From the NCBI RefSeq assembly GCF_010993965.1, contig NZ_WIXM01000019.1, forward strand, positions 1-63,407: a DNA stretch of 63,407 bases, in the 5' to 3' direction. How positions within the stretch are numbered: the stretch's first letter is position 1; every line of letters begins with the position of its first letter. Below, in pieces: positions 47,343 through 63,407 of this stretch. A program made the position numbers and the translations under genes. The stretch is from Gracilibacillus sp. YIM 98692. Its GTDB lineage: Bacteria > Bacillota > Bacilli > Bacillales > Amphibacillaceae. Below the pieces are notes generated by a model that was not told where the DNA came from, did not search any database, and was given only the letters and a program-made list of their open reading frames with translations.

Positions 47343-47573
47343 ATGCTAGTTTTAACAAGAAAATCAAACGAAGCAATCAAAATTGGTGATGATATCGAGA
47401 TAAAAGTAGTTAGTGTCGATGGGGATCAAGTAAAGCTAGGCATTAGCGCTCCAAAAGATGTAGAAATTCACCGTAAAGAAATTTATCAAGCCATTCAAGC
47501 AGAAAATAACGAAGCAGCAGAACTATCGACAAATGTCATCGATTTAATTAAAAAAAGTGACAAAAACACTTAA
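47343..47573 (+). CDS. csrA: Carbon storage regulator CsrA (canonical)
   Basis: Predicted 76-residue dimeric RNA-binding repressor. [20 protein letters not shown] holds Leu4 and Arg6, and [19 protein letters not shown] holds the conserved Arg that contacts GGA loops. The C-terminal helix is full length, as needed for FliW binding in B. subtilis. AGAGGAGGAAT precedes the ATG. The hag promoter overlaps its stop codon. Confidence 0.96.
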
Positions 47574-49674: not shown

Positions 49675-50269
49675 ATGGAATTAATTTTAAATAATAGAGA
49701 TAAGTCGATATTTATAGAACAACCAAATAATACAGATGATATTATACATGAAATAAATCAGCTAATAGATGATAATTTAATTTTTAGTCATTTGGAGCTG
49801 AATGGAAAAGAAATTTATAGTGATTTTAAGCATTATATTTCCGTTCATCTAGCAAGTATACAGTCTATTAAAATTATTGCTAAATCCCAAAAGACATTTA
49901 TTAACGATAGTCTACTATCAGCTGAAGTTTACCTAAAAAGAGCAATATTTTTGTTAGATGATGTAGTTGATAATTTTTATAATAATCCTAGTACGGATGA
50001 TTGGGATGATTTTAAAGATTTAGTTGATGGATTACAATGGATAATTCAAATGTTAAATAGTATATCTAATTTAACAGAAAAGCCGGAAAATGGTGGAGCT
50101 TATATAAAGATAAATACAGAACTTACGGAAACTATCCATGCACTCGGTGATGCAGTAGCAAATCAAGATGGCATACTTATAGCGGATATTATTTACTATG
50201 AAATAATCCCCACTTATAAACAGTTAGAGAAACTTATAAATAAAACAATTGACGAAGAGGGACGAAGAT

Positions 50270-50283
<14 letters not shown>
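49675..50283 (+). CDS. Conserved unknown protein preceding maf
   Basis: Predicted 202-residue acidic, mostly helical protein without signal peptide or recognised domain. It starts after TGGAGGA and overlaps the maf gene by 14 bases, so the two are translationally coupled. Similar small helical proteins are often placed next to Maf in Gram-positive motility loci; a chaperone or adaptor for flagellin glycosylation is a reasonable guess only. Confidence 0.65.
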
Positions 50284-53082
<2,799 letters not shown>

Positions 53083-53115
53083 TTAAACTTTGTAATGCAA
53101 AGGGATGTGATCTTG

Positions 53116-53847
53116 GTGAATATAGTTGCCATTATTCAAGCAAGGATGGGGTCTTCAAGGTTACAAGGAAAAGTATTAAAGGAAGTAATGAGTAAACCAT
53201 TGTTAGAGTATCAATTACAAAGAGTAAAGAAATCAGAACTAATTACAGATGTGGTTGTAGCGACAACACTTTTACCTAGTGATGACCTTATTATAGATTT
53301 ATGTAATGAATTAAATATTAAGACCTTTAGAGGCCCAGAAAATAATGTTCTTGAAAGATATTATCAAGCAGCAAGAGAATATGATGCTAATATTATCGTG
53401 AGAATGACTGGTGATTGTCCTTTAATTGATCCTTTTATTATAGATAAAGTAATAGATAATTATATTGATAATGAATATGATTATGTCTCAAATACACAAA
53501 TACGTACCTATCCACGAGGAATGGATGTAGAAGTTTTTTCAGGTAAAGCACTTAAGAGTGCTTATGATAATGCCAAAAAAGGGTATGAAAAAGAACACGT
53601 AACTCCTTATATTTACTTAAATAAAAGGTACTTCAATATAGGACAAGTTCAATATAAAGAAAATTATAGTAAATATCGTTTGACTGTCGATACTGCAGAA
53701 GACTTTAATCTTATATCCGAAATTTTAAAGAGTATCTATCCAAATAAACAACTTTTTACTTTAAATGATATTATTTATTTATTGGAAAAAGAGCCTGAAT
53801 TAATAGAAATCAATAAACATGTAAAGCAAAAAAAATTAGGTGAATAA
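53116..53847 (+). CDS. SpsF-type cytidylyltransferase
   Basis: Predicted 243-residue nucleotidyltransferase of the CTP_transf_3/SpsF family. Start GTG 53116 follows AAAGGGAT. IIQARMGSSRLQGKVLKEV near residue 5 is the nucleotide-binding signature and VRMTGDCPLIDPFIID near 100 supplies metal-binding residues. SpsF/PseF-type enzymes activate nonulosonates as CMP-sugars for transfer by Maf. B. subtilis SpsF acts in spore coat polysaccharide; here the context is flagellar. Confidence 0.82.
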   Translation: MNIVAIIQARMGSSRLQGKVLKEVMSKPLLEYQLQRVKKSELITDVVVATTLLPSDDLIIDLCNELNIKTFRGPENNVLERYYQAAREYDANIIVRMTGDCPLIDPFIIDKVIDNYIDNEYDYVSNTQIRTYPRGMDVEVFSGKALKSAYDNAKKGYEKEHVTPYIYLNKRYFNIGQVQYKENYSKYRLTVDTAEDFNLISEILKSIYPNKQLFTLNDIIYLLEKEPELIEINKHVKQKKLGE

Positions 53848-53849
53848 AA

Positions 53850-54722
53850 TTGAAAAAAGTTATGATTTTTGGTGCAACAGGGATGTTGGGGAAATCACTC
53901 AGTCATGTATTACAACAAATTGGAATTGAAGTTATTGAGGTAACAAGAAATTATCCATACTATATTGATTTTATTTTAAATAGTAATTCAATAGACGATT
54001 TAATCAGATTAGAATCACCTGATATAGTGATTAATTGTGCTGCAATTGTAAACTTAGAATATTGTGAGAAAAATCCTAAAGAAGCATACCTAGTCAATGC
54101 TAGAGCACCATATATTTTATCATCTGCTTGTGAAAAGTTTGGAGTATATTTTGTGCAAATTTCAACAGATCATTATTATAATGACAAACCAATTCATTCG
54201 CATTATGAAAATGAAAAAATAACGCTATTAAATGAGTATGCTAAAACGAAATTTGCAGGTGAAGCTTTTACATTGATTAATCAAGCAGCATTAGTTATTA
54301 GAACAAATCTAGTTGGCTTTAGAAATGGTTATAGTCCTACTTTCTTTGAATGGATAATTAAAGAACTTGAAGCGAATAGGGATATTATAGGTTACACTGA
54401 TTTCTATACTTCTAGTATAGATACAATTAGCTTTTCAGAACTTCTTCTAAAGCTTATAAATTTGAAAACTTGCGGAATTTATAATATCGCAGCTAATGAT
54501 GTTATTTCTAAATATGAATTTATTCGGAAAGTGGCATATTATTTTAATACAAGTAGTCAGATAAAAAAAGGTAAAATAACAAATACCATACCCAGAGCAA
54601 AGACTTTAGGTTTAGATAATAGTAAATTTATTAAGCATACAGGGGAGATACCCCCTACAAGTAATGAAGTTATTAATCGCCTAGTTAATGAATATAGAAA
54701 GGGTGAGCTTGTTGAACTTTAA
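53850..54722 (+). CDS. RmlD-like nucleotide-sugar reductase
   Basis: Predicted 290-residue SDR of the RmlD_sub_bind family, starting at TTG 53850 after TTAGGTGA. The cofactor loop FGATGMLGKSLSHVL near 6, the ISTDHYYNDKPIHSHYENE block near 105 and catalytic YAKTK near 130 are seen. RmlD enzymes reduce a 4-keto-6-deoxy sugar. Placed after a PseB-like dehydratase, it may reduce the 4-keto group instead of the usual amination, which would give a 4-hydroxy rather than 4-amino sugar (inference). Confidence 0.78.
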   Translation: MKKVMIFGATGMLGKSLSHVLQQIGIEVIEVTRNYPYYIDFILNSNSIDDLIRLESPDIVINCAAIVNLEYCEKNPKEAYLVNARAPYILSSACEKFGVYFVQISTDHYYNDKPIHSHYENEKITLLNEYAKTKFAGEAFTLINQAALVIRTNLVGFRNGYSPTFFEWIIKELEANRDIIGYTDFYTSSIDTISFSELLLKLINLKTCGIYNIAANDVISKYEFIRKVAYYFNTSSQIKKGKITNTIPRAKTLGLDNSKFIKHTGEIPPTSNEVINRLVNEYRKGELVEL

Positions 54723-55788
54723 ATCGGAGTTAAAAATAAATAATTCAACAATATCATTAAGTAATCCATCTTATTTTATTGCAGATATAGCCTCAAATCA
54801 TGATGGTGATTTAAATAGAGCTAAGGAATTGATTTGGTTATGTAAAGAAGCTGAAGCTGATGCTGTAAAATTTCAACATTTTACAGCAGAGGGTTTAATA
54901 AGCCAAAAGGGTTTTGATGGAATAGAGAATGCAAGTCATCAATCGAATTGGCATAAAAGTGTGTTTGATGTCTTTAAAGATTATGAGCTAAATAGAAACT
55001 GGAATTTGGAATTAATGGAAGAAGCTAAAAAAGCAAATATTGATTTTTTAACTACTCCTTATGATTTAGAGGCTGTTGATGAATTAGATCAATACCTTCC
55101 AGCATATAAGATTGGGTCCGGTGATATAACGTATACTGACTTTATTAAGACAATATCAAGGAAAAATAAACCCATGTTGATGGCGACTGGAGCATCAGAT
55201 ATAGCAGATGTTGAAAGAGCGGTTCATTCAATCAATAAATATAATGAGAAGATTGTATTAATGCAATGTAATACTAACTACACAAACTCATTAGAAAACT
55301 TTCATTATATAAATCTAAATGTTTTAAAATTATACACTACAATGTTTCCTAATGTAATCTTGGGATTATCAGATCACACCCCTGGCCACAGTACAGTGCT
55401 TGGTGCTATAGCACTAGGAGCAAGGGTAATAGAAAAACATTTTACAGATGATAATGAAAGGATAGGGCCAGATCATCCTTTTTCTATGAATCCAAAATCA
55501 TGGAAAGAAATGGTGGAAAGATCAAGGGAATTGGAACAATCTTTAGGTGATGGTGTAAAAAAAATCGAAAAAAACGAAGAAAAAACTGCAATAATACAAA
55601 GAAGAGCATGTTATTTAAAGAAGTCCCTAAAAAAAGGAGATATTCTAAAAAATGATGACGTGGACTTTTTAAGACCAGCAACAGTTAATGCCATCAAACC
55701 TTACGAGATAATAAATTATATTGGAAAAAAAATAAATTCATCTAAAGAAAAAGGTGAAGTAATAAACAAGCATGATATGGGGGAATAA
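54712..55788 (+). CDS. N-acetylneuraminate/nonulosonate synthase family (NeuB/PseI/SpsE-like)
   Basis: Predicted 358-residue PEP-dependent aldol condensing enzyme. The start is a TTG (54712 or 54709) after AAAGGGTGA, overlapping the previous gene by about 11 bases. The TIM barrel begins YFIADIASNHDGDLNRAKEL and has AVKFQHFTAEGLI near 55, MATGASDIADVERAV near 155 and LSDHTPGHST near 220; a C-terminal SAF domain (about 295-355) follows. It joins PEP to a six-carbon aminosugar to form a nine-carbon acid. The exact sugar is uncertain because other steps are atypical. Confidence 0.88.
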   Translation: MNFKSELKINNSTISLSNPSYFIADIASNHDGDLNRAKELIWLCKEAEADAVKFQHFTAEGLISQKGFDGIENASHQSNWHKSVFDVFKDYELNRNWNLELMEEAKKANIDFLTTPYDLEAVDELDQYLPAYKIGSGDITYTDFIKTISRKNKPMLMATGASDIADVERAVHSINKYNEKIVLMQCNTNYTNSLENFHYINLNVLKLYTTMFPNVILGLSDHTPGHSTVLGAIALGARVIEKHFTDDNERIGPDHPFSMNPKSWKEMVERSRELEQSLGDGVKKIEKNEEKTAIIQRRACYLKKSLKKGDILKNDDVDFLRPATVNAIKPYEIINYIGKKINSSKEKGEVINKHDMGE

Positions 55789-55794
55789 TTTAGA

Positions 55795-56319
55795 ATGATA
55801 AAAGGTTCTAAAGTAGGATTAAGATCTATTGAGGAACAAGACTTGGATAAATTACAATCATGGCGTAATAATTCTGAATTGAGAGTCTATTTTCGTGAAT
55901 ATAGAGAATTAAATAAACAAAATCAATATGGGTGGTATAATAACGTTGTTTCAAATAGTAAAAATACTATTATGTTCGGAATAATTAATTTACAAACTGA
56001 AAATCTAATTGGGGCTTGTGGTTTATGTTATATTGATTGGATTAATAGGAGTGCAGAGCTATCGGTTTATATTGGTGAAAAAAAGATTTATATTGATGAC
56101 ATTTATGCAACTGAGGCTACAGAACTACTAGAAACATATGGGTTTGAAGAGGTGAATCTCAATCGTATATGGTGTGAAGTTTATTCTTTTGATGAGAAAA
56201 AAATAAAATTATTAAATGAAGCTGGTTATATCTTAGAAGGAAGACTAAGAAGCACACACTGGACAAAAGGTTCTTGGTATGATTCTTATATATATGGAAA
56301 ATTACTATCGGAACAATAG
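55795..56319 (+). CDS. GNAT N-acetyltransferase (RimJ/RimL type, PseH-like)
   Basis: Predicted 174-residue acetyltransferase. The GNAT core includes GLRSIEEQDLDKLQSWRNNS at the N-terminus, NLIGACGLCYIDWINRSAEL near 65 and the C-terminal NRIWCEVYSFDEKKIKLLNE near 122. The standard glycine-rich acetyl-CoA loop is replaced by GEKKIYIDDIYATEATELL, an unusual sequence in this family that may weaken binding. In Pse loci PseH acetylates the 4-amino group; here it may acetylate a nonulosonate precursor. Six bases after the synthase gene. Confidence 0.75.
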   Translation: MIKGSKVGLRSIEEQDLDKLQSWRNNSELRVYFREYRELNKQNQYGWYNNVVSNSKNTIMFGIINLQTENLIGACGLCYIDWINRSAELSVYIGEKKIYIDDIYATEATELLETYGFEEVNLNRIWCEVYSFDEKKIKLLNEAGYILEGRLRSTHWTKGSWYDSYIYGKLLSEQ

Positions 56320-56397
56320 TACTAATAAAAGGTTTAGTTAATATATTTATTTTAGTGTATTAATAAATATATGAAGTATATCTTAGGATGTGATTAA

Positions 56398-57396
56398 ATG
56401 AGATTTGATTTTATACATATCGGTATGATGAAGACAGCTACAACGTATATGCAAAATGTATGGCAACAGGATCCAACATATTGTTTATCTTGGCAAGGAA
56501 ATACACAATTTTTAAATGAATTAAGGAATAATGTTATTCAGGACAATACGAACATGTTAGTAAGTACTCTAATTAATACAGATACAGTACCAAAGTCAAA
56601 TCAAACCGTTGTCGTAAGTAGGGAAGGTTTTTCAACAGCATTTTTAAATCAACCGGTATATCAAGATAAAATACCTGAATTTGTTGACTACACAAGCAAA
56701 AGTTTGAACCAAGTTACTAAAAAGACAGAAAACTTACTAATAACAATCCGGGAACCAATTTCTTGGATAAGGTCTATGTACGTTCAATCTATTAAACAAG
56801 GTAATTATGGTTCAGCACAGGAATTTGTCGATAAACAAAGTGAATTTTTAAAAAATTCTTTAGACCTTGAGTATGTAATCAGTTGCTATAAAAGATATTT
56901 TAGCAATATCTTAGTTTTGCCTTTTGAATTACTTAAAGAGAATAAAAAAATATTCTGGGGAGTAATCTCGGATGCTTTTCAAGTTCCAGTTGCTAAAGAT
57001 AATTTAGACCAAAAAATGAATACCTCTTTAAATTTAGAAAGAACTTATTTATTGTCTAAAATGAATGAAATGTCTAGGTTACTAACAAATACTCTAAAAA
57101 ATTCATCGGATTACAATAATGTCAAAGAAAAAAGACATTTGATTATAAATCACTTAAGTAACGAAAAATGGGTTCATAGAAGATTTGTAGAATATGCTTC
57201 TAGTGAACAAATTCATGAGTTATATAATTTGTTTGGAATTACTAATCCACCAATAGATTTTTTAGAATTTAAATTAACAAATGATTTAAAGGATGCCATC
57301 CAAAAGAATTATATTGATTTTCTAAAAGAAAATACTATTCCAGAAGTAAGCGAAGAATATCAAGCTGCTTTTGATGAGATAACACATAATATATAG
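56398..57396 (+). CDS. Sulfotransferase-like protein 1
   Basis: Predicted 332-residue protein. IHIGMMKTATTYMQNVW at residues 6-22 is a 5'-phosphosulfate-binding loop (KTxTT type) and TIREPISWIRSMYVQ near 118 fits the 3'-phosphate motif RxPxxxxxS, together indicating a PAPS-dependent sulfotransferase. The C-terminal 150 residues are helical and poorly conserved. No signal peptide or membrane segment, so it acts in the cytoplasm before export of flagellin. It follows the acetyltransferase by 78 bases, after AGGATGTG. Confidence 0.72.
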   Translation: MRFDFIHIGMMKTATTYMQNVWQQDPTYCLSWQGNTQFLNELRNNVIQDNTNMLVSTLINTDTVPKSNQTVVVSREGFSTAFLNQPVYQDKIPEFVDYTSKSLNQVTKKTENLLITIREPISWIRSMYVQSIKQGNYGSAQEFVDKQSEFLKNSLDLEYVISCYKRYFSNILVLPFELLKENKKIFWGVISDAFQVPVAKDNLDQKMNTSLNLERTYLLSKMNEMSRLLTNTLKNSSDYNNVKEKRHLIINHLSNEKWVHRRFVEYASSEQIHELYNLFGITNPPIDFLEFKLTNDLKDAIQKNYIDFLKENTIPEVSEEYQAAFDEITHNI

Positions 57397-57433
57397 CTTT
57401 ATCATTTGCGAATATAAAGGTAGGGTTAATTTA

Positions 57434-58747
57434 ATGGCTAGTGAAGGATTAAAAATGTATGAATTAATGGAGAAATTATTTCCAATTTGCAGAAGTATAA
57501 CTGGTGAGGGTGTTAGAGAAACTTTAAGGGATATTCAAGAACATATACCACTTGAAGTGAAGGAGGTTCCTAGCGGTACGGAAGTATTTGATTGGACAAT
57601 TCCAAGAGAATGGAACATCAATGATGCTTATGTTAAAAATGATCAAGGAGAAAAGATTATTGATTTTCAACAAAATAATTTACATGTAATGGGTTATTCT
57701 GTTCCCGTTGATAAAAGAGTAACTCGTGAAGAATTAGAAGAACATTTATACTCATTACCGGATCAGCCAAATGCCATTCCTTATGTTACTTCATATTACA
57801 AAGAACGTTGGGGCTTTTGTATACGTCATGGGGACAGAACGAAATTAACTGATAGAGAATACTATGTCAAAATTGATAGTTCATTAGAAAATGGAAGTCT
57901 TACCTATGGAGAATTAATTATTCCAGGTGAACAGCGTGAAGAGGTTTTCTTATCCACATACATATGTCACCCTTCTATGGCAAATAACGAATTGTCAGGC
58001 CCAGTCTTATTATCCCATCTAGTAAAGTGGTTACGTACTAAAAAACGAAAGTATACTTATCGGATTGTTTTTGTTCCTGAAACAATAGGCGCTTTAACTT
58101 ATTTAAGTAGAAATTTAGAAGAAATGAAGGAGAATATTATAGCTGGATTTAATATTACTTGTGTTGGTGATGATTTAGAGTACTCTTTTCTTCCTTCTCG
58201 TTATGGAAATACATTATCAGATCGTGTGGCACTAAAAATAATGGAAGATAGCGATATATCCTTTAAGAAATATTCATTCCTTGAAAGAGGAAGTGACGAA
58301 AGACAATATTGTAGTCCAGGTATTGATTTACCAATTGCTAGTATTATGCGTACAAAGTATTGGGAATATCCGGAATATCACACGTCATTGGATAATCTAG
58401 ATTTTGTTTCACCAAATGGATTACAAGGAGCTTTTGATATTTATAAAGCCTGTATCGAGTTAATAGAGCAAAATGAAAAATTTATGGTGAATTGTTTAGG
58501 AGAACCACAGCTAGGAAAAAGAGGTTTGTATCCGACTATAAGTAAAAAAGGTTCTGCAAATCGGGTAAGAGATATACTTAATGTTCTCACATATGCTGAT
58601 GGAACTAACGATTTAATTGATATCAGTTACATTACTGGCTTACCAGTTAGTGATGTATTAGATATTGTGTATGATCTTTACAATAAAAATCTATTAATAG
58701 TAAAAGAACGGGAAGATATTGCTTCTTTTGATTTTCAATTAAATTAG
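57434..58747 (+). CDS. DUF4910 (aminopeptidase-like) protein
   Basis: Predicted 437-residue protein with a DUF2172/DUF4910 zinc-peptidase-like core. LFPICRSITGEGVRETL near 16 is the family start, and metal ligands are suggested by STYICHPSMANNELSGP near 175, VFVPETIGAL near 212, ERGSDERQYCSPG near 285 and EYHTSLDNLDFV near 315. The C-terminal 60 residues look like a winged helix. These M28-like proteins recur in nonulosonate and polysaccharide loci, where an amidase/deacylase role on sugars is suspected; this is not proven. Confidence 0.75.
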   Translation: MASEGLKMYELMEKLFPICRSITGEGVRETLRDIQEHIPLEVKEVPSGTEVFDWTIPREWNINDAYVKNDQGEKIIDFQQNNLHVMGYSVPVDKRVTREELEEHLYSLPDQPNAIPYVTSYYKERWGFCIRHGDRTKLTDREYYVKIDSSLENGSLTYGELIIPGEQREEVFLSTYICHPSMANNELSGPVLLSHLVKWLRTKKRKYTYRIVFVPETIGALTYLSRNLEEMKENIIAGFNITCVGDDLEYSFLPSRYGNTLSDRVALKIMEDSDISFKKYSFLERGSDERQYCSPGIDLPIASIMRTKYWEYPEYHTSLDNLDFVSPNGLQGAFDIYKACIELIEQNEKFMVNCLGEPQLGKRGLYPTISKKGSANRVRDILNVLTYADGTNDLIDISYITGLPVSDVLDIVYDLYNKNLLIVKEREDIASFDFQLN

Positions 58748-58764
58748 GAAAGGACGAGTAAACA

Positions 58765-59922
58765 TTGGAACAGAAACCATATATAATTACGGGTATGCCT
58801 AGATCAGGGACAACGTTGATTTCTAGAATACTTGATGCTCACCCGAATTCAATAGCCCCGCCTGATCCGTATTTTGGTTTTTTTCGTGAATTTAGAAATG
58901 CTTTGTTTGAAGAATTGGGGATTGATTATAATAAAGAAGAACCGTTGCATGATTATTTTTATGGGAACAATACACATAAAAAACATGCAATTATGAATGC
59001 AAAGTTAGAAATACCATTAAACAGAAACTTGGATAATATTAAAGATACCATTAATAGTTTTGCCGAGACATCGTCTCCATTGGTGATTCCTTATGTAAAA
59101 AAAATTGAGGCAGATGACTATAAATCTCTTTTACTCGCATTATATAGGGCTTTAAAAAATGCTTACGGAGATAATTCAACTACACATATAGGATTTAAAA
59201 CAGCATGGATTGAAGAGTTTTTCCATCCTCTTTATCAATCATTAAATGAAATGAAGTTTGTTCAAATTATTCGGGATCCAAGATCTTTAATTGCATCTAG
59301 ATTAAAATCTACTCAAAACTTAAGACACGATTATCCTTTAGATTTTCTAGTGAAAAATTGGCGTAAATCTGTATTATATGGTATGTATAATGCTAAATAT
59401 TATAGTGATAATGTCTATGTTGTAAAATATGAAGATCTGGTTACAAACACTAAAGAAGAAGTTAAAAAAATATGTAGATTTTTAGAATTAGAATATAATG
59501 AAAAAATGGTTGATATAAGTTCCTTTCGTGATGGGAAGGGAAATACATGGACTAATAATTCCGCTTATAAAGATACCAATACTATATCAAGTGATTTTAT
59601 TAATAAGTGGATGGATGTATTAACTGCTAACGAAGTTCAATATATTGAAGATCTATGTAATTTCGAAATGATGTATTATGGCTATAATAGAATTACTAAA
59701 AATAATATTCAAAGATCGGCTTTCCAATCTCTTAATAAGGATAGCCATGAATCAGATTGGATTAATCAAATGGATAAGCCTATTCAAATGTCAGAAGCAG
59801 AATTATTAAAATACCATGTGTATAATGATCCAGAGCTTGATAAGTATTCAAATGAATTTTTAGAGAAATTGTTTTTATTCCCTGAGATACCGGACATAGC
59901 TGATGAACCAAAAGTTCGTTGA
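58765..59922 (+). CDS. Sulfotransferase family protein 2
   Basis: Predicted 385-residue PAPS-dependent sulfotransferase of the Sulfotransfer_1/3 type. ITGMPRSGTTLISRILDAHP (residues 8-27) is a classical 5'-phosphosulfate loop and VQIIRDPRSLIASRL near 170 the 3'-phosphate motif; KYEDLVTNTKEEVKKICRFL near 222 is also typical. Start TTG 58765 follows GGAAAGGACGAG. It is more typical than the first sulfotransferase of the island and differs from it in sequence. Last gene of the island, with no clear terminator. Confidence 0.85.
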   Translation: MEQKPYIITGMPRSGTTLISRILDAHPNSIAPPDPYFGFFREFRNALFEELGIDYNKEEPLHDYFYGNNTHKKHAIMNAKLEIPLNRNLDNIKDTINSFAETSSPLVIPYVKKIEADDYKSLLLALYRALKNAYGDNSTTHIGFKTAWIEEFFHPLYQSLNEMKFVQIIRDPRSLIASRLKSTQNLRHDYPLDFLVKNWRKSVLYGMYNAKYYSDNVYVVKYEDLVTNTKEEVKKICRFLELEYNEKMVDISSFRDGKGNTWTNNSAYKDTNTISSDFINKWMDVLTANEVQYIEDLCNFEMMYYGYNRITKNNIQRSAFQSLNKDSHESDWINQMDKPIQMSEAELLKYHVYNDPELDKYSNEFLEKLFLFPEIPDIADEPKVR

Positions 59923-59953
59923 AATATATTTATAAAATTATTGATAAAAACAC

Positions 59954-59980
59954 TTAACATTCCTAACCGACTTCCGATAA
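59954..59980 (+). promoter_or_regulatory. Sigma-D-like promoter of the csrA-paralogue/hag2 unit
   Basis: TTAA (59954-59957), exactly 15 bases, TCCGATAA (59973-59980). This matches the hag1 promoter (TAAA-N15-TCCGATAG) closely. Confidence 0.65.
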
Positions 59981-60016
59981 ATAAAGTAAGAAGTCCAAAA
60001 TCCAATAGCAAGGTAA

Positions 60017-60030
60017 CTCAGGACGAGTTC
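60017..60030 (+). promoter_or_regulatory. AGGA-loop hairpin in the leader of csrA paralogue 1
   Basis: AACTC-AGGAC-GAGTT forms a five-base-pair hairpin with GGA in the loop, the shape bound by CsrA. CTCAGGACGAG recurs before the second paralogue. A further ATTGC/GCAAT hairpin lies near 60044-60058. Confidence 0.5.
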
Positions 60031-60150
60031 GAATGCGTTTTTATTGCAAGAGGCAATGGATTTACATTCTGTTCTCGTCCTTTCTTGGCTTCTAAATGTA
60101 AAAATATTACAATATGATTAAGGGAATCTTCCAGGAAGGAGGAGCTGTCC

Positions 60151-60303
60151 GTGCTCGTACTGACTTGTAAAACTGGGGAGTCGATTAAGATTGATGACCG
60201 AATTACAGTGCGGGTGGTAGCAGGCAAAAAGGGGCAGTTACGCTTAGCGATTGATGCACCGAAAGACGTAGCGATCCACCGCGGCGAAAAACAACCATCA
60301 TAG
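60151..60303 (+). CDS. CsrA-like protein, short paralogue 1 (50 residues)
   Basis: A 50-codon ORF begins at GTG 60151 after GGAAGGAGGAG and is clearly CsrA: MLVLTCKTGESIKIDDRITV at the N-terminus and LRLAIDAPKDVAIHRGE near 30-46. Arg6 of the MLVLTRK motif is Cys, while the GGA-contacting Arg44 is kept. It ends right after the RNA-binding strand and lacks the C-terminal helix that CsrA uses to meet FliW, so it may bind RNA without FliW control or act as a dominant partner in heterodimers (inference). Confidence 0.88.
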   Translation: MLVLTCKTGESIKIDDRITVRVVAGKKGQLRLAIDAPKDVAIHRGEKQPS

Positions 60304-60337
60304 TTTTTAACATAGATATATAATTAAATATTTCAAA

Positions 60338-60416
60338 AGCTCAGGACGAGCAGATAGGTTAGCCAAGCCATGCAGGATGCACCGGTAAGGTGAAGATACT
60401 TATTTGCTCGTTTTTT
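60338..60416 (+). promoter_or_regulatory. Terminator/anti-terminator-like leader of csrA paralogue 2
   Basis: GCTC (60339-60342)-AGGAC-GAGC (60348-60351) is a GGA-loop hairpin. The same GAGC can instead pair, as CGAGCAGAT (60347-60355), with ATTTGCTCG (60402-60410), which runs into six T residues, a terminator. The two structures exclude each other. Between them lie another GGA (AGGAT 60374) and a CACC/GGTG hairpin. This is a candidate for CsrA-controlled attenuation. Confidence 0.5.
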
Positions 60417-60463
60417 GTTTTCCAAAATTAGGATCAGTCATAACCATTCAAGGAGGAATAAAA

Positions 60464-60685
60464 GTGTTAGTTTTAGGAAGAAAACCTGGGGAATACGTCG
60501 TGATTGACAATCACATTATCGTCAAAGTCATTAAAGGTACAAGTGGGCAGCTGAGACTAGCGATTGATGCACCGAAGGAAGTACCGATTGTTCGAGGTGA
60601 AGTACACGAAGAAAAACTAGCTCAAAAGGTAGTTATTCCACCAAAACCATTGAAATCTAATAAAGCCATAACGCCAGCATCATAG
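60464..60685 (+). CDS. CsrA-like protein, paralogue 2 (73 residues)
   Basis: Predicted 73-residue CsrA relative starting at GTG 60464, eight bases after AAGGAGG. MLVLGRKPGEYVVIDNHIIV keeps Arg6 but changes Thr5 to Gly, and LRLAIDAPKEVPIVRGEVHE keeps the RNA-contact Arg but changes the preceding His to Val. The C-terminus is basic and Pro-rich (VVIPPKPLKSNK) instead of the acidic helix of canonical CsrA. It shares the GQLRLAIDAPK core with paralogue 1, so the two arose by duplication. Confidence 0.88.
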   Translation: MLVLGRKPGEYVVIDNHIIVKVIKGTSGQLRLAIDAPKEVPIVRGEVHEEKLAQKVVIPPKPLKSNKAITPAS

Positions 60686-60728
60686 AATTCAAGTTCAAGT
60701 GCTAATTTTATAATTTTAAGGAGGTGGT

Positions 60729-60763
60729 GTGGAGGAAGAGATAAAGCGAGACATATTCCACAC
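60729..60763 (+). other. Hairpin upstream of hag2
   Basis: GTGTGGA and TCCACAC form a seven-base-pair stem with a purine-rich loop containing GGAAGAG. It lies in the 150-base leader between csrA paralogue 2 and hag2; no sigma-D promoter was readable here. Confidence 0.45.
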
Positions 60764-60784
60764 TTTAATAAAATCTTAGAATGA

Positions 60785-60828
60785 GTGCATACGGATGTGC
60801 ACGAAACAAAATGACAATTACACGGAGG
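60785..60828 (+). promoter_or_regulatory. CsrA-binding sites in the hag2 leader
   Basis: GTGCA (60785-60789) pairs with TGCAC (60798-60802), closing a small hairpin that shows CGGA in the loop (ATACGGATGT). A second GGA lies in the Shine-Dalgarno ACACGGAGG (60820-60828). This repeats the two-site layout of hag1 with a different stem. Confidence 0.75.
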
Positions 60829-60837
60829 TTATGAAAA

Positions 60838-62604
60838 ATGATTATTAACAACAACATACCGGCACTAAATACTTACCGTCAAATGGGAATTAATCAAGGA
60901 GCACAACAAAATGCAATGGAAAAGCTGTCATCAGGTCTTCGCATTAACAGAGCTGGTGATGATGCAGCCGGTTTAGCGATTTCTGAAAAAATGCGTGCGC
61001 AAATTCGTGGTTTAGATCAAGCAAGTCGTAACTCACAAGATGGTATCTCGATGATTCAAACAGCTGAAGGTGCATTAAATGAAACACACAATATCCTACA
61101 ACGTATGCGTGAACTTGCGACACAAGCTTCAAACGATACAAACGTTGATGTTGATCGTGAAGAAATCCAAAAAGAGATTAATGAATTAACTTCTGAGATT
61201 AACCGTATTGGTAATACCACAGAATTCAACACGCAAAAAATACTTAAAGGTGACGAACAAGTTTTTGTAAAAGAAACTGGATTAGATGACTTAGCAATTG
61301 GTGAATTATCTGGTGGTGGTACAACTTATAGTAACGCAACACAAACTATTGATTTTAACGCTGTTTCAGGTGGAGATGCAGACTCTGAAACTTTAGTGTT
61401 TAAGCTTGGTGATACAGACGGTAATATTCAAGAGATTACTATTTCTTTTGCTTCTGGAGGTTCAGATGGTTATGTAACGGATAGTGCAACGGCTACTTCT
61501 GCAACTGTTTCTATCTCAACAGGAACAACTGCGTCTGGAACTGTGGCAAGTGCAGTAGAAGATGCTTTAAAGGCAGTCATTGCTGAAAATGAAAAGTTAG
61601 CAGGAAATTATGATACATCAGTCTCTTCTGGTAATTTAACACTTACTGCTGTAAATGATCTAGCTGGAAATCAAGGGAAAATGTTAGATACAAGTGGTTC
61701 AAATACGAACACGGTAAATGCTGGCGGAGATGCTTCTATTGGTGAGACTTTATTAGATAAAGCAAGTGGGACAATGGATTTAACCAACTTAACCAGTGGA
61801 GAAATTCGTGATCTAGCAGGTACTGGTTTAACTGTTAACGGTCAAGCAGTTGAGTTTTATAACTCAAGTGATGGTCATTATACAGGTGAAGCTCTAGGGA
61901 TCGATATTAGTTCAGCTATAGCTGTTATGGAAAACCAAACGAATGTTAGCTCAGGTCAAGCTCAATTAGCATCAGATATCGCAAATGCTTTAGATGATAT
62001 CGAGGGAATCGATGTATCAGATGATGGAGCTGGATCTGTTAATATAGTAGCTTCTGAAGGTGGAGAAGCTGGTAATGATATATCTATTACAGACGGAGCA
62101 ACAAGTAGTGATTTTACTGCTAAATTCCAAATTGGATCCAATCAAGGTCAAAGTATGCAAATTAACATTGGTGATATGAGAGCTGCAGCACTTGGTGTAG
62201 CTGGATCTGACGCAGGAGGAAGTGTCGATGGCGTTGAAGGCGCTGCTTATACTGAAGTAGAAAGTGTAACGAATGGTACAGATAATAATAAAACAGAGTT
62301 TGCATTAGATGTATCCACTCATGAAAGTGCTTCTGCAGCAGTTACTGCAATTAATGATGCGATTGAAAAAGTTTCAGCACAACGTTCTAATTTAGGATCA
62401 TTCCAAAATCGTTTAGAGCATACTATTTCAAATTTAGATAACTCATCTGAGAACTTATCTGCAGCGGAATCACGTATTCGGGATGTGGATATGGCGAAAG
62501 AAATGATGGAAATGACTCGTGCAAATATTCTTTCTCAAGCATCACAATCTATGTTAGCTCAAGCAAATCAGCAGCCACAGTCAGTATTACAGTTATTAGG
62601 TTAA
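60838..62604 (+). CDS. Flagellin 2 (large)
   Basis: Predicted 588-residue flagellin paralogous to flagellin 1. The first 150 and last 100 residues are nearly identical to it, and the central part shares blocks such as [16 protein letters not shown] and [20 protein letters not shown] while differing elsewhere. It starts at ATG 60838 after CGGAGG. It is placed after two CsrA-like genes and downstream of the glycosylation island. Two flagellins of equal size can make mixed or alternative filaments. Confidence 0.95.
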
Positions 62605-62619
62605 TTATATAATATAGAT

Positions 62620-62653
62620 AAGGGATTCTATTATGGAATCTCTTAATTTTTAA
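62620..62653 (+). terminator. Terminator of hag2
   Basis: AAGGGATTC pairs with GAATCTCTT (one G-T pair) around seven bases and is followed by AATTTTTAAT. Confidence 0.75.
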
Positions 62654-62792
62654 TATTAGCTAATTACATATATTGATTTATTAATAGAAAAAATGTATGA
62701 TGGTGATCGTCCAACTTATTATTAGAGTGAAATAAAAGCCAGTATAGACTGATACTGTCTTGGCGGTACAAAAACAGCAGGAGGTTACATCA

Positions 62793-63068
62793 ATGGAAAG
62801 TAAGTATCCAAAAATATTTAAGTGGCTAGGTATAATAGAGATAATAGCTGGATTTTTTGTTGCAGGAATAATGGCAGATCAAGCAAGAGATGATGGTTTT
62901 GCTGTATTTATTCCTGTATTTTTGATTGGAATAGTTACTGGGATATTCTTGATGGCATTCGGTCATGTCATATCTCTACTGGAAGAGATTAGTAACAATT
63001 CAAGGCGTTCAGAAGAGAATTCAAGAAAAACCTGGCTTGAAATAGAAAAATTAAGAGAAGATAAATAA
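62793..63068 (+). CDS. Small two-helix membrane protein
   Basis: Predicted 91-residue protein. ATG 62793 lies eight bases after AGGAGG; the earlier in-frame start at 62760 has no ribosome site. Two membrane segments (about 10-28, FKWLGIIEIIAGFFVAGIM, and 39-62, VFIPVFLIGIVTGIFLMAFG) are followed by a charged helix. Similar small proteins are common in Bacillaceae; function unknown. Confidence 0.7.
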   Translation: MESKYPKIFKWLGIIEIIAGFFVAGIMADQARDDGFAVFIPVFLIGIVTGIFLMAFGHVISLLEEISNNSRRSEENSRKTWLEIEKLREDK

Positions 63069-63124
63069 GATCCATTATATAGACAGCTTACCTTAGAATA
63101 TTAGAACGGAAATAGGAATTTTCC

Positions 63125-63155
63125 AAACAATCACTAATCCTAGTGGTTGTTTTTA
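63125..63155 (+). terminator. Terminator of the small membrane protein gene
   Basis: AACAATCACTA (63126-63136) pairs with TAGTGGTTGTT (63141-63151) with one wobble, followed by TTTTATT. Confidence 0.85.
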
Positions 63156-63267
63156 TTATGTAATAAATTCTTGTAATTACTGTAAAAAGTTGCTAAAATC
63201 AAAACAGAACAAATGTTCTTGTTGCGTTTTATATATAGAAGGGTGGTTATAATGGGTGGAAACGCTA

Positions 63268-63342
63268 ATGCAAGTAAGAGAAGGTCAAAAGTCGTATATT
63301 CCTCATGATCAACTGTTCAAGCAATTAATCGGAAGTTTGTGA
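63268..63342 (+). pseudogene. N-terminal remnant of an Rpn/YhgA-type transposase-like nuclease
   Basis: A 24-codon stretch reads MQVREGQKSYIPHDQLFKQL and stops soon after. The YIPHDxLFKQL signature is the start of Rpn-family (PD-(D/E)XK, putative transposase) proteins. The stop and the lack of the following FFEEF-type sequence in any frame up to the window end indicate a decayed fragment. No transposase ends can be seen. The family assignment is from memory of the motif. Confidence 0.45.
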
Positions 63343-63407
63343 TACTCATAATCTTTTATTTTTTGTTTTAAAATAAACAGTTCACTAGAGAGTTCTTCCA
63401 AAGGCTT

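Follow-up and report, generated by a model that had tools for sequence, protein, structure and literature searches.

Short csrA genes, attenuator-like RNA elements and a putative switch for the second flagellin of a Gracilibacillus

Introduction

CsrA binds GGA loops in RNA as a dimer with two sites. The closest described setting to the locus reported here is the FliW-CsrA-Hag circuit of Bacillus subtilis, which likewise combines sigma-D control with a CsrA-family gene next to that for flagellin and with GGA hairpins in the leader of the flagellin message. As described in the available parts of the sources (PMC6529632, PMC7829508), that circuit is translational and is reset by FliW acting on the CsrA helix, whereas the short CsrA proteins considered below lack those contacts. 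Moreover, short-csrA loci carry a terminator/antiterminator-type element and the canonical FliW-CsrA-Hag locus does not.

Several other systems share parts of this arrangement. In antitermination by ANTAR proteins (EutV, NasR, AmiR), a dimeric RNA-binding protein acts on two loops, with repeats through one operon, and a small hairpin overlaps the 5' arm of an intrinsic terminator; however, the protein family is unrelated, and the targets, in the part of PMC3369931 available, consist of two adjacent hairpins, whereas here a single 5' hairpin is combined with a GGA in the terminator loop. RAT antitermination (GlcT/LicT/SacY; ptsG leader) also relies on an alternative hairpin that excludes the terminator, but the protein belongs to another family and there are no GGA loops. 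At pgaA of E. coli, a CsrA dimer on two sites remodels a leader hairpin and alters elongation, although what is promoted there, according to the available part of PMC7652899, is Rho-dependent termination, with no intrinsic terminator/antiterminator pair. Legionella csrR and the Pseudomonas Rsm proteins are examples of several CsrA-family genes in one genome, with a paralogue targeted by CsrA, but the available parts of PMC7366521 and PMC7652899 report no link to a flagellin cassette or an attenuator. We found no description of a CsrA-type attenuator before a flagellin gene in the open-access literature, a scope outside which most subscription papers fall. For pLS20, no flagellin or CsrA link was found in the literature, as far as its accessible parts go; in the accessible part of PMC2965389, csra, hag and motility are absent as whole words, a search that would miss flagellar and flagellin.

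Here we analysed a stretch of 63,407 nucleotides from Gracilibacillus sp. YIM 98692 (contig NZ_WIXM01000019.1), hereafter the window, in which two additional csrA genes, csrA2 and csrA3, precede a second flagellin gene, hag2.

Results

According to a profile search, three CsrA genes exceed the cut-off in the whole genome, all of them within the window, and no other of the 17 genomes in the genus search, a number that includes this one, has more than one. An initial annotation had described csrA2 and csrA3 as GTG-started CsrA relatives of 50 and 73 residues, the first with Cys in place of Arg6 and the second with a basic, Pro-rich tail, lying before hag2 and behind a sigma-D-like promoter. Each of these points was confirmed (Table 1): both reading frames are present, Cys is seen at position 6, the tail of csrA3 contains Lys and Pro, the genes stand between the TAAC-N15-CCGATA site and the start of hag2, and both proteins pass the 27-bit cut-off of Pfam PF02599 (68.7 bits for csrA2 and 69.7 bits for csrA3). 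They miss the cut-off of 70.1 of the NCBIfam csrA equivalog TIGR00202, with 60.2 and 51.0 bits, respectively; canonical csrA reaches 107.2. The GGA hairpin of the hag2 leader resembles the CsrA sites known from hag of B. subtilis, and an additional GGA lies inside the ribosome-binding site (60823-60829). The interval between hag1 and csrA2 (50249-59922) is an apparent flagellin-modification island, with matches to a Maf-type glycosyltransferase, Polysacc_synt_2, a cytidylyltransferase, an RmlD-like protein, NeuB, an acetyltransferase and a sulfotransferase. On the 3' side of hag2, a 102-aa reading frame with hydrophobic stretches (62760-63068) has nothing over the Pfam cut-off.

Table 1. Features of the csrA2-csrA3-hag2 locus and the canonical csrA gene in the window
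Feature	Position	Strand	Remarks
canonical csrA (comparison)	47343..47573	+	76 aa, Ile51 and Asn55, behind fliW, without a nearby element
sigma-D-like promoter	59955..59979	+	TAAC-N15-CCGATA, 29 nt upstream of element 1
attenuator-like RNA element 1	60009..60086	+	covariance model R1, 40.9 bits, E 6.9e-9
GGA hairpin over csrA2 ribosome-binding site	60127..60143	+	TCTTCC[AGGAA]GGAGGA, hairpin scan
csrA2	60151..60303	+	GTG start; 50-aa CsrA paralogue, Cys for Arg6, stops ahead of the FliW-binding helix
attenuator-like RNA element 2	60332..60419	+	covariance model R1, 49.0 bits, E 3.5e-11
GGA hairpin, csrA3 ribosome-binding site in loop	60446..60459	+	ATTC[AAGGAG]GAAT, hairpin scan
csrA3	60464..60685	+	GTG start; 73-aa short CsrA, GRKPGEY ... 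VRGE signature, Arg6 and Arg44 present, Lys51 and Lys55
GGA hexaloop hairpin, hag2 leader	60785..60802	+	GTGCAT[ACGGAT]GTGCAC, read from sequence, folded
hag2, second flagellin gene	60838..62604	+	588 aa

The two genes had been regarded as local oddities, a view that the comparison with other genomes overturns, as both are members of an ancient branch of the family with a wide distribution. Judged by their sequences, csrA2 and csrA3 sit in a branch of short CsrA proteins found beside flagellin genes in many Firmicutes, and because the same gene type adjoins a flagellin gene in so many other genomes, chance can be excluded. A recent local duplication of csrA was rejected on the basis of a tree in which csrA2 and csrA3 fall outside the canonical group. 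This tree was built by a quick method from residues 1-48 only (136 rows, few columns); one split separates canonical from all non-canonical proteins with a support of 82, not starred, while the csrA2-like and insert-type groups have starred supports of 96 and 98; the majority of the internal nodes lack resolution, and a pair of long branches come together. As sole proof of function, flagellin proximity is weak: 27/55 canonical csrA genes likewise lie no more than 1 kb from a gene for flagellin, and such closeness does not by itself set the short branch apart.

Arg6 and Arg44, the RNA-contact residues of CsrA, are retained in 141/141 and 140/141 rows of the short branch, respectively. R44 is given as an RNA-contact residue of CsrA in the available part of PMC7829508. 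csrA3 has both arginines, while csrA2 has Arg44 but Cys6. This cysteine occurs in 7/7 csrA2-like rows, which come from four species and include the same genome twice in some cases, and in all four csrA2-type proteins (window 60151-60303, L085, L090, L095), where its position in the RNA-binding strand could make it a sensor or a weakened site.

The contacts to FliW have been mapped to V51 and N55 in Campylobacter CsrA, and Asn55 serves in B. subtilis too (PMC7829508, available part). Ile or Val51 is present in 54/55 and Asn55 in 54/55 of our canonical rows; the short rows have Asn55 in 7/141 and mostly Gln, Glu, Asn or Lys at position 51. Both contact residues are missing from csrA2, which ends at residue 50, and from csrA3, where each is a lysine. 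The suggestion that the short proteins escape FliW control is thereby strengthened. The related claim that truncation removes the FliW-binding part holds for the contacts but less clearly for the fold: an AlphaFold2 monomer model of csrA3 contains a helix at 45-57 (mean pLDDT 76.4; such a model says little on a domain-swapped dimer), so that this protein may still form the C-terminal helix. Campylobacter CsrA shortened to 50 residues is unstable, according to the same part of PMC7829508.

A repeated intergenic sequence, NCUC A(N)GGAY GAGN ... GCAGGANGC ... NCUCGUCCUUUUUU, folds as a long, strong intrinsic terminator (median -32.6 kcal/mol in the independent set). The covariance model R1 finds two copies in the window and no further match. 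Element 1 forms the 5' hairpin AACTC[AGGAC]GAGTT (60015-60029), and in its terminator AGGACGAG (60020-60027) pairs with CTCGTCCT (60074-60081); it is degenerate, in that both stems are kept but AAGAGG replaces the apical-loop GGA and the U-tract is interrupted. Element 2 is intact, with the 5' hairpin GCTC[AGGAC]GAGC (60339-60351), the apical TGCAGGATGCA (60371-60381), and the 3' arm and U-tract TTTGCTCGTTTTTT (60403-60416). In contrast to L090 and L095, the stretch from csrA3 to hag2 contains no element. Because of this gap and the degeneration of element 1, direct attenuation would concern csrA2 and csrA3 only.

How do the two stems of the element relate to each other? In the terminator fold, the four bases immediately 5' of the first GGA stay single-stranded, yet they can pair with the GAGN on the 3' side of this GGA. 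As GAGN is also the partner of the terminator's 3' arm, only one of the folds can exist at any time. The element thus has the anatomy expected of a protein-responsive attenuator, with two mutually exclusive conserved stems ahead of a gene. Folding calculations follow the same pattern: the 5' hairpin has a pair probability of at least 0.5 in 97/143 nascent RNAs and in 1/143 once the terminator is complete, and in 5/143 when the 5' arm is shuffled. In the window, the probability falls from 0.99 (element 1) and 1.0 (element 2) in the nascent RNA to 0 at full length.

Both stems are supported by covariation. Compensatory changes are found at 9/15 predicted pairs of the terminator stem in an alignment of 46 training sequences. 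The 5' hairpin, whose loop is ANGGAY or AGGAN, has a stem of at least 3 bp in 134/143 elements and of at least 4 bp in 99/143, and nine lack a 3-bp stem; these counts, like their controls, use an ANGGA loop, and admitting only A before GGA gave at least 4 bp in 60/143. A stem of 4 bp is attained by 79 of the 111 distinct arm pairs, whereas 2000 partner swaps gave 47.2 on average and never more than 59; in non-training loci, 41 of the 66 distinct pairs attain it (swap mean 21.2, maximum 33). A second, interior GGA is present in 129/143 elements at a nearly constant spacing from the first (median 30 nt, IQR 29-31), and in 106 of these 129 all three nucleotides of this apical GGA are unpaired in the terminator fold.

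The 143 elements comprise 141 plus-strand matches to R1 (E<1e-3) in named loci and the two window copies. The matches fall in 73/79 loci, six being without one, and loci outside the training set carry the element in 49/55 cases. By the next gene, 99 elements precede a short csrA (median gap 37 nt) and 42 a flagellin gene (median 110 nt), and two lie at contig ends; conversely, 75 of the 121 short csrA genes are preceded by an element at a distance of up to 200 nt. No element was found at the 18 plus-strand canonical csrA genes of the named loci or at the window's copy, and the insert-type short csrA loci of the window's own family have none at all.

At the level of the order, 25 genomes contain an insert-free short csrA and 21 of them match the element at E <=1e-5, many of the 21 having supplied training sequences; two more match weakly (G412, G471) and two not at all (G175, G334). 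Only 4 of the other 372 genomes of the order match at this threshold. These four are the glcT-ptsG leaders L185 and L189 and the short terminators L187 and L188. Where long non-csrA matches were opened, a known attenuator context was seen in L185, L189 and L193 only, all of which we take to be glcT-ptsG leaders. At E <=0.01, 52 genomes of the order match in all, the weak matches being mostly short. Within a class-level set of 299 genomes, the element is matched at E <=1e-5 in this genome only; the initial screen of this set evaluated a small number of candidates in each genome (15 for the RNA model). Because the matches opened in this set gave no new short csrA, it serves as a negative control only. 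Besides this genome, nine class-level genomes have an A3 match at E <=1e-14; the five opened are all fliW-csrA-hag loci, and four (G619, G716, G744, G752) were left unopened. Plasmid and phage collections yielded 169 and 34 records, respectively, with CsrA relatives, all of less than 60% identity.

Some loci show further features. Many Paenibacillus-type loci have tandem elements about 45 nt apart ahead of one short csrA, before the last csrA in L087, L091, L096, L097, L101, L103, L108, L110, L112, L115, L117, L120 and L123. The flagellins 3' of short csrA genes are often very large (L096-L136 and others), up to 1190 aa as a complete reading frame in the 12-kb loci (L136). On an IMG/VR contig (L164:3995-7718), CsrA-like and flagellin genes lie directly 5' of the genes for the small and large terminase subunits, which suggests that the csrA-flagellin pair is carried there by a phage or prophage; on another IMG/VR contig (L160), csrA is followed by a flagellin gene.

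A riboswitch or other known RNA was rejected as the identity of the elements, which have no Rfam match: the window from 59900 to 63407 gave none at E up to 1, and the 12 related loci gave seven matches at gathering score, none of them on an element. Three Tepidibacter loci, out of 12 loci scanned, have a c-di-GMP-II riboswitch directly 5' of the first short csrA (L086:5435-5517, L089:5474-5558, L099:5396-5479), which would bring second-messenger input to short csrA.

In 42/74 loci, compared to 1.4 expected, a sigma-D-like site lies no further than 300 nt 5' of the first element; in 16 of these 42, many of them related Paenibacillus-type loci, exactly 18 nt separate the end of its -10 part from the element. 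Such sites are absent from the 250 nt downstream of the last element (0/74 loci) and from the csrA-element-hag intervals (0/67). Sigma-70-like sites occur in 20/67 element-to-hag intervals, against 25.9 expected by shuffling. Therefore, the flagellin gene is probably transcribed by read-through across the element, as judged from these site counts, although another promoter may lie between element and hag.

GGA hairpins are also placed on ribosome-binding sites, in 4/4 csrA2-like genes (control mean 0.4), 12/12 insert-type csrA genes and 35/122 short csrA genes (control 9.6), compared to 1/54 canonical csrA genes (control 1.7). In all 12 insert-type cases (L029, L037, L039-L044, L046, L047, L049, L050), the GGA-loop hairpin that holds the csrA ribosome-binding site lies directly 3' of a sigma-D-like site. 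In these csrA genes, which stand before flagellin genes, the hairpin is perfect, of the kind AUCAUC[ANGGAG]GAUGAU. Translational autoregulation of insert-type csrA is likely from this placement, and the hairpin may be a translational version of the same idea as the attenuator element.

Discussion

We propose that csrA2, csrA3 and hag2 probably form a sigma-D-transcribed operon under attenuators, with a dimer of short CsrA as the antiterminator. RNA polymerase would start at about 59985 and first make the small GGA-loop hairpin and, some 30 nt further on, a second GGA. Once the 3' arm of the terminator is made, the terminator would displace the 5' hairpin in RNA free of bound protein, and transcription would stop ahead of csrA2 or of csrA3. 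A dimer of short CsrA, the operon's own product, would hold the 5' hairpin and, in intact elements, the apical GGA loop as well, and because of this the terminator could not form. Polymerase would then run on into csrA3 and hag2, which would amount to a self-reinforcing switch for the second flagellin, with translation limited by the GGA hairpins at the ribosome-binding sites of csrA2 and csrA3 and by the hairpin of the hag2 leader. Because the short proteins are without FliW-contact residues, this switch should not be reset via FliW, unlike canonical CsrA-hag1, and should lie largely outside FliW control.

That CsrA binds the element, that binding leads to read-through and that the partner is a short and not the canonical CsrA is what we infer from the sequence comparisons. 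Given a competing GGA hairpin, a second GGA at constant spacing and csrA itself as the controlled gene, antitermination, and hence positive feedback, would be the simplest account of the direction of regulation. Counting against the model are the short csrA genes and the six loci without an element, the nine elements short of a 3-bp 5' hairpin, the element-free insert-type loci, the degenerate element 1 and the lack of an element ahead of hag2 in the window, the sigma-70-like sites between element and hag, the flagellin genes near canonical csrA and, for csrA2, the missing Arg6 and the instability of the 50-residue Campylobacter CsrA. A choice between the two flagellin messages, which had been put forward for the paralogues, finds no footing here, as nothing ties csrA2 or csrA3 to one of them. 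Control of transcription of their own operon is the best-supported role, because the elements stand there in cis and are absent at canonical csrA-hag1.

It is unlikely that a CsrA-type dimer acts in the opposite direction, gripping the apical GGA loop and stabilising termination, so that the operon shuts itself off by negative feedback. CsrA is known chiefly as a repressor, most apical GGAs are free of pairing in the terminator fold, and E. coli CsrA promotes Rho-dependent termination at pgaA (PMC7652899, available part); yet negative feedback of this kind would account neither for the 5' GGA hairpin, which is conserved, covaries and competes with terminator formation, nor for the constant spacing of the two GGAs. 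Improbable, too, is a role of the terminated leader RNAs as decoys, in which the GGA hairpins of sigma-D transcripts would titrate canonical CsrA and free the hag1 and hag2 messages, as a CsrB-like sponge. Each leader does contain several GGA hairpins, and the terminator would free a discrete small RNA. However, the 5' GGA is base-paired in the complete terminator, which would suit a decoy badly; the element recurs ahead of each gene of the operon, and a strict alternative pairing would serve no purpose.

We give little credit to the elements being ordinary terminators between independently transcribed genes, with the paralogues as plain translational repressors or dispensable leftovers. Their strength as terminators would agree with this, as would the frequency of GGA hairpins on the ribosome-binding sites of insert-type, csrA2-like and short csrA genes, but ordinary terminators would not carry a covarying, competing GGA-loop hairpin and would not stand directly behind a promoter, and there is no sigma-D-like site downstream of the elements. 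Least credible is an ANTAR-type protein as antiterminator in place of CsrA: the ANGGAY hexaloop has the ANTAR-recognised A1 and G4, and ANTAR targets are A1/G4 hexaloop mini-hairpins repeated through an operon beside intrinsic terminators (PMC3369931, available part), but where these comprise two adjacent hexaloop hairpins, the second overlapping the terminator, one hairpin precedes the terminator here, with no room left for another in the 16 loci that place it only 18 nt behind the -10 site, the association with csrA genes would be left unexplained, and this genome has no ANTAR match, a weak argument as control genomes are silent too.

Returning to antitermination by short CsrA, a much wider reading is conceivable, which we offer as a doubtful but possible extension. 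A Firmicutes-wide branch of CsrA might consist of dedicated antiterminators that bridge two GGAs about 30 nt apart and commit the cell to its second flagellin by FliW-free positive feedback; the tandem Cys6-containing csrA2 might yield mixed dimers with one weakened site, tuning the switch, perhaps by redox, and the cassette might move between hosts, also on phages.

If the proposed antitermination is true, a CsrA-family protein would have gained a role as antiterminator at intrinsic terminators, which we did not find described, and the element would be a new regulatory RNA without an Rfam match. The second flagellin switch would be separate from the FliW-CsrA homeostasis of Bacillus subtilis, and would explain how many Firmicutes can keep back an additional flagellin, often of very large size, and turn on its expression in a switch-like manner. 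The conserved RNA switch, as predicted here, suggests a so far undescribed way to turn an alternative flagellum on.
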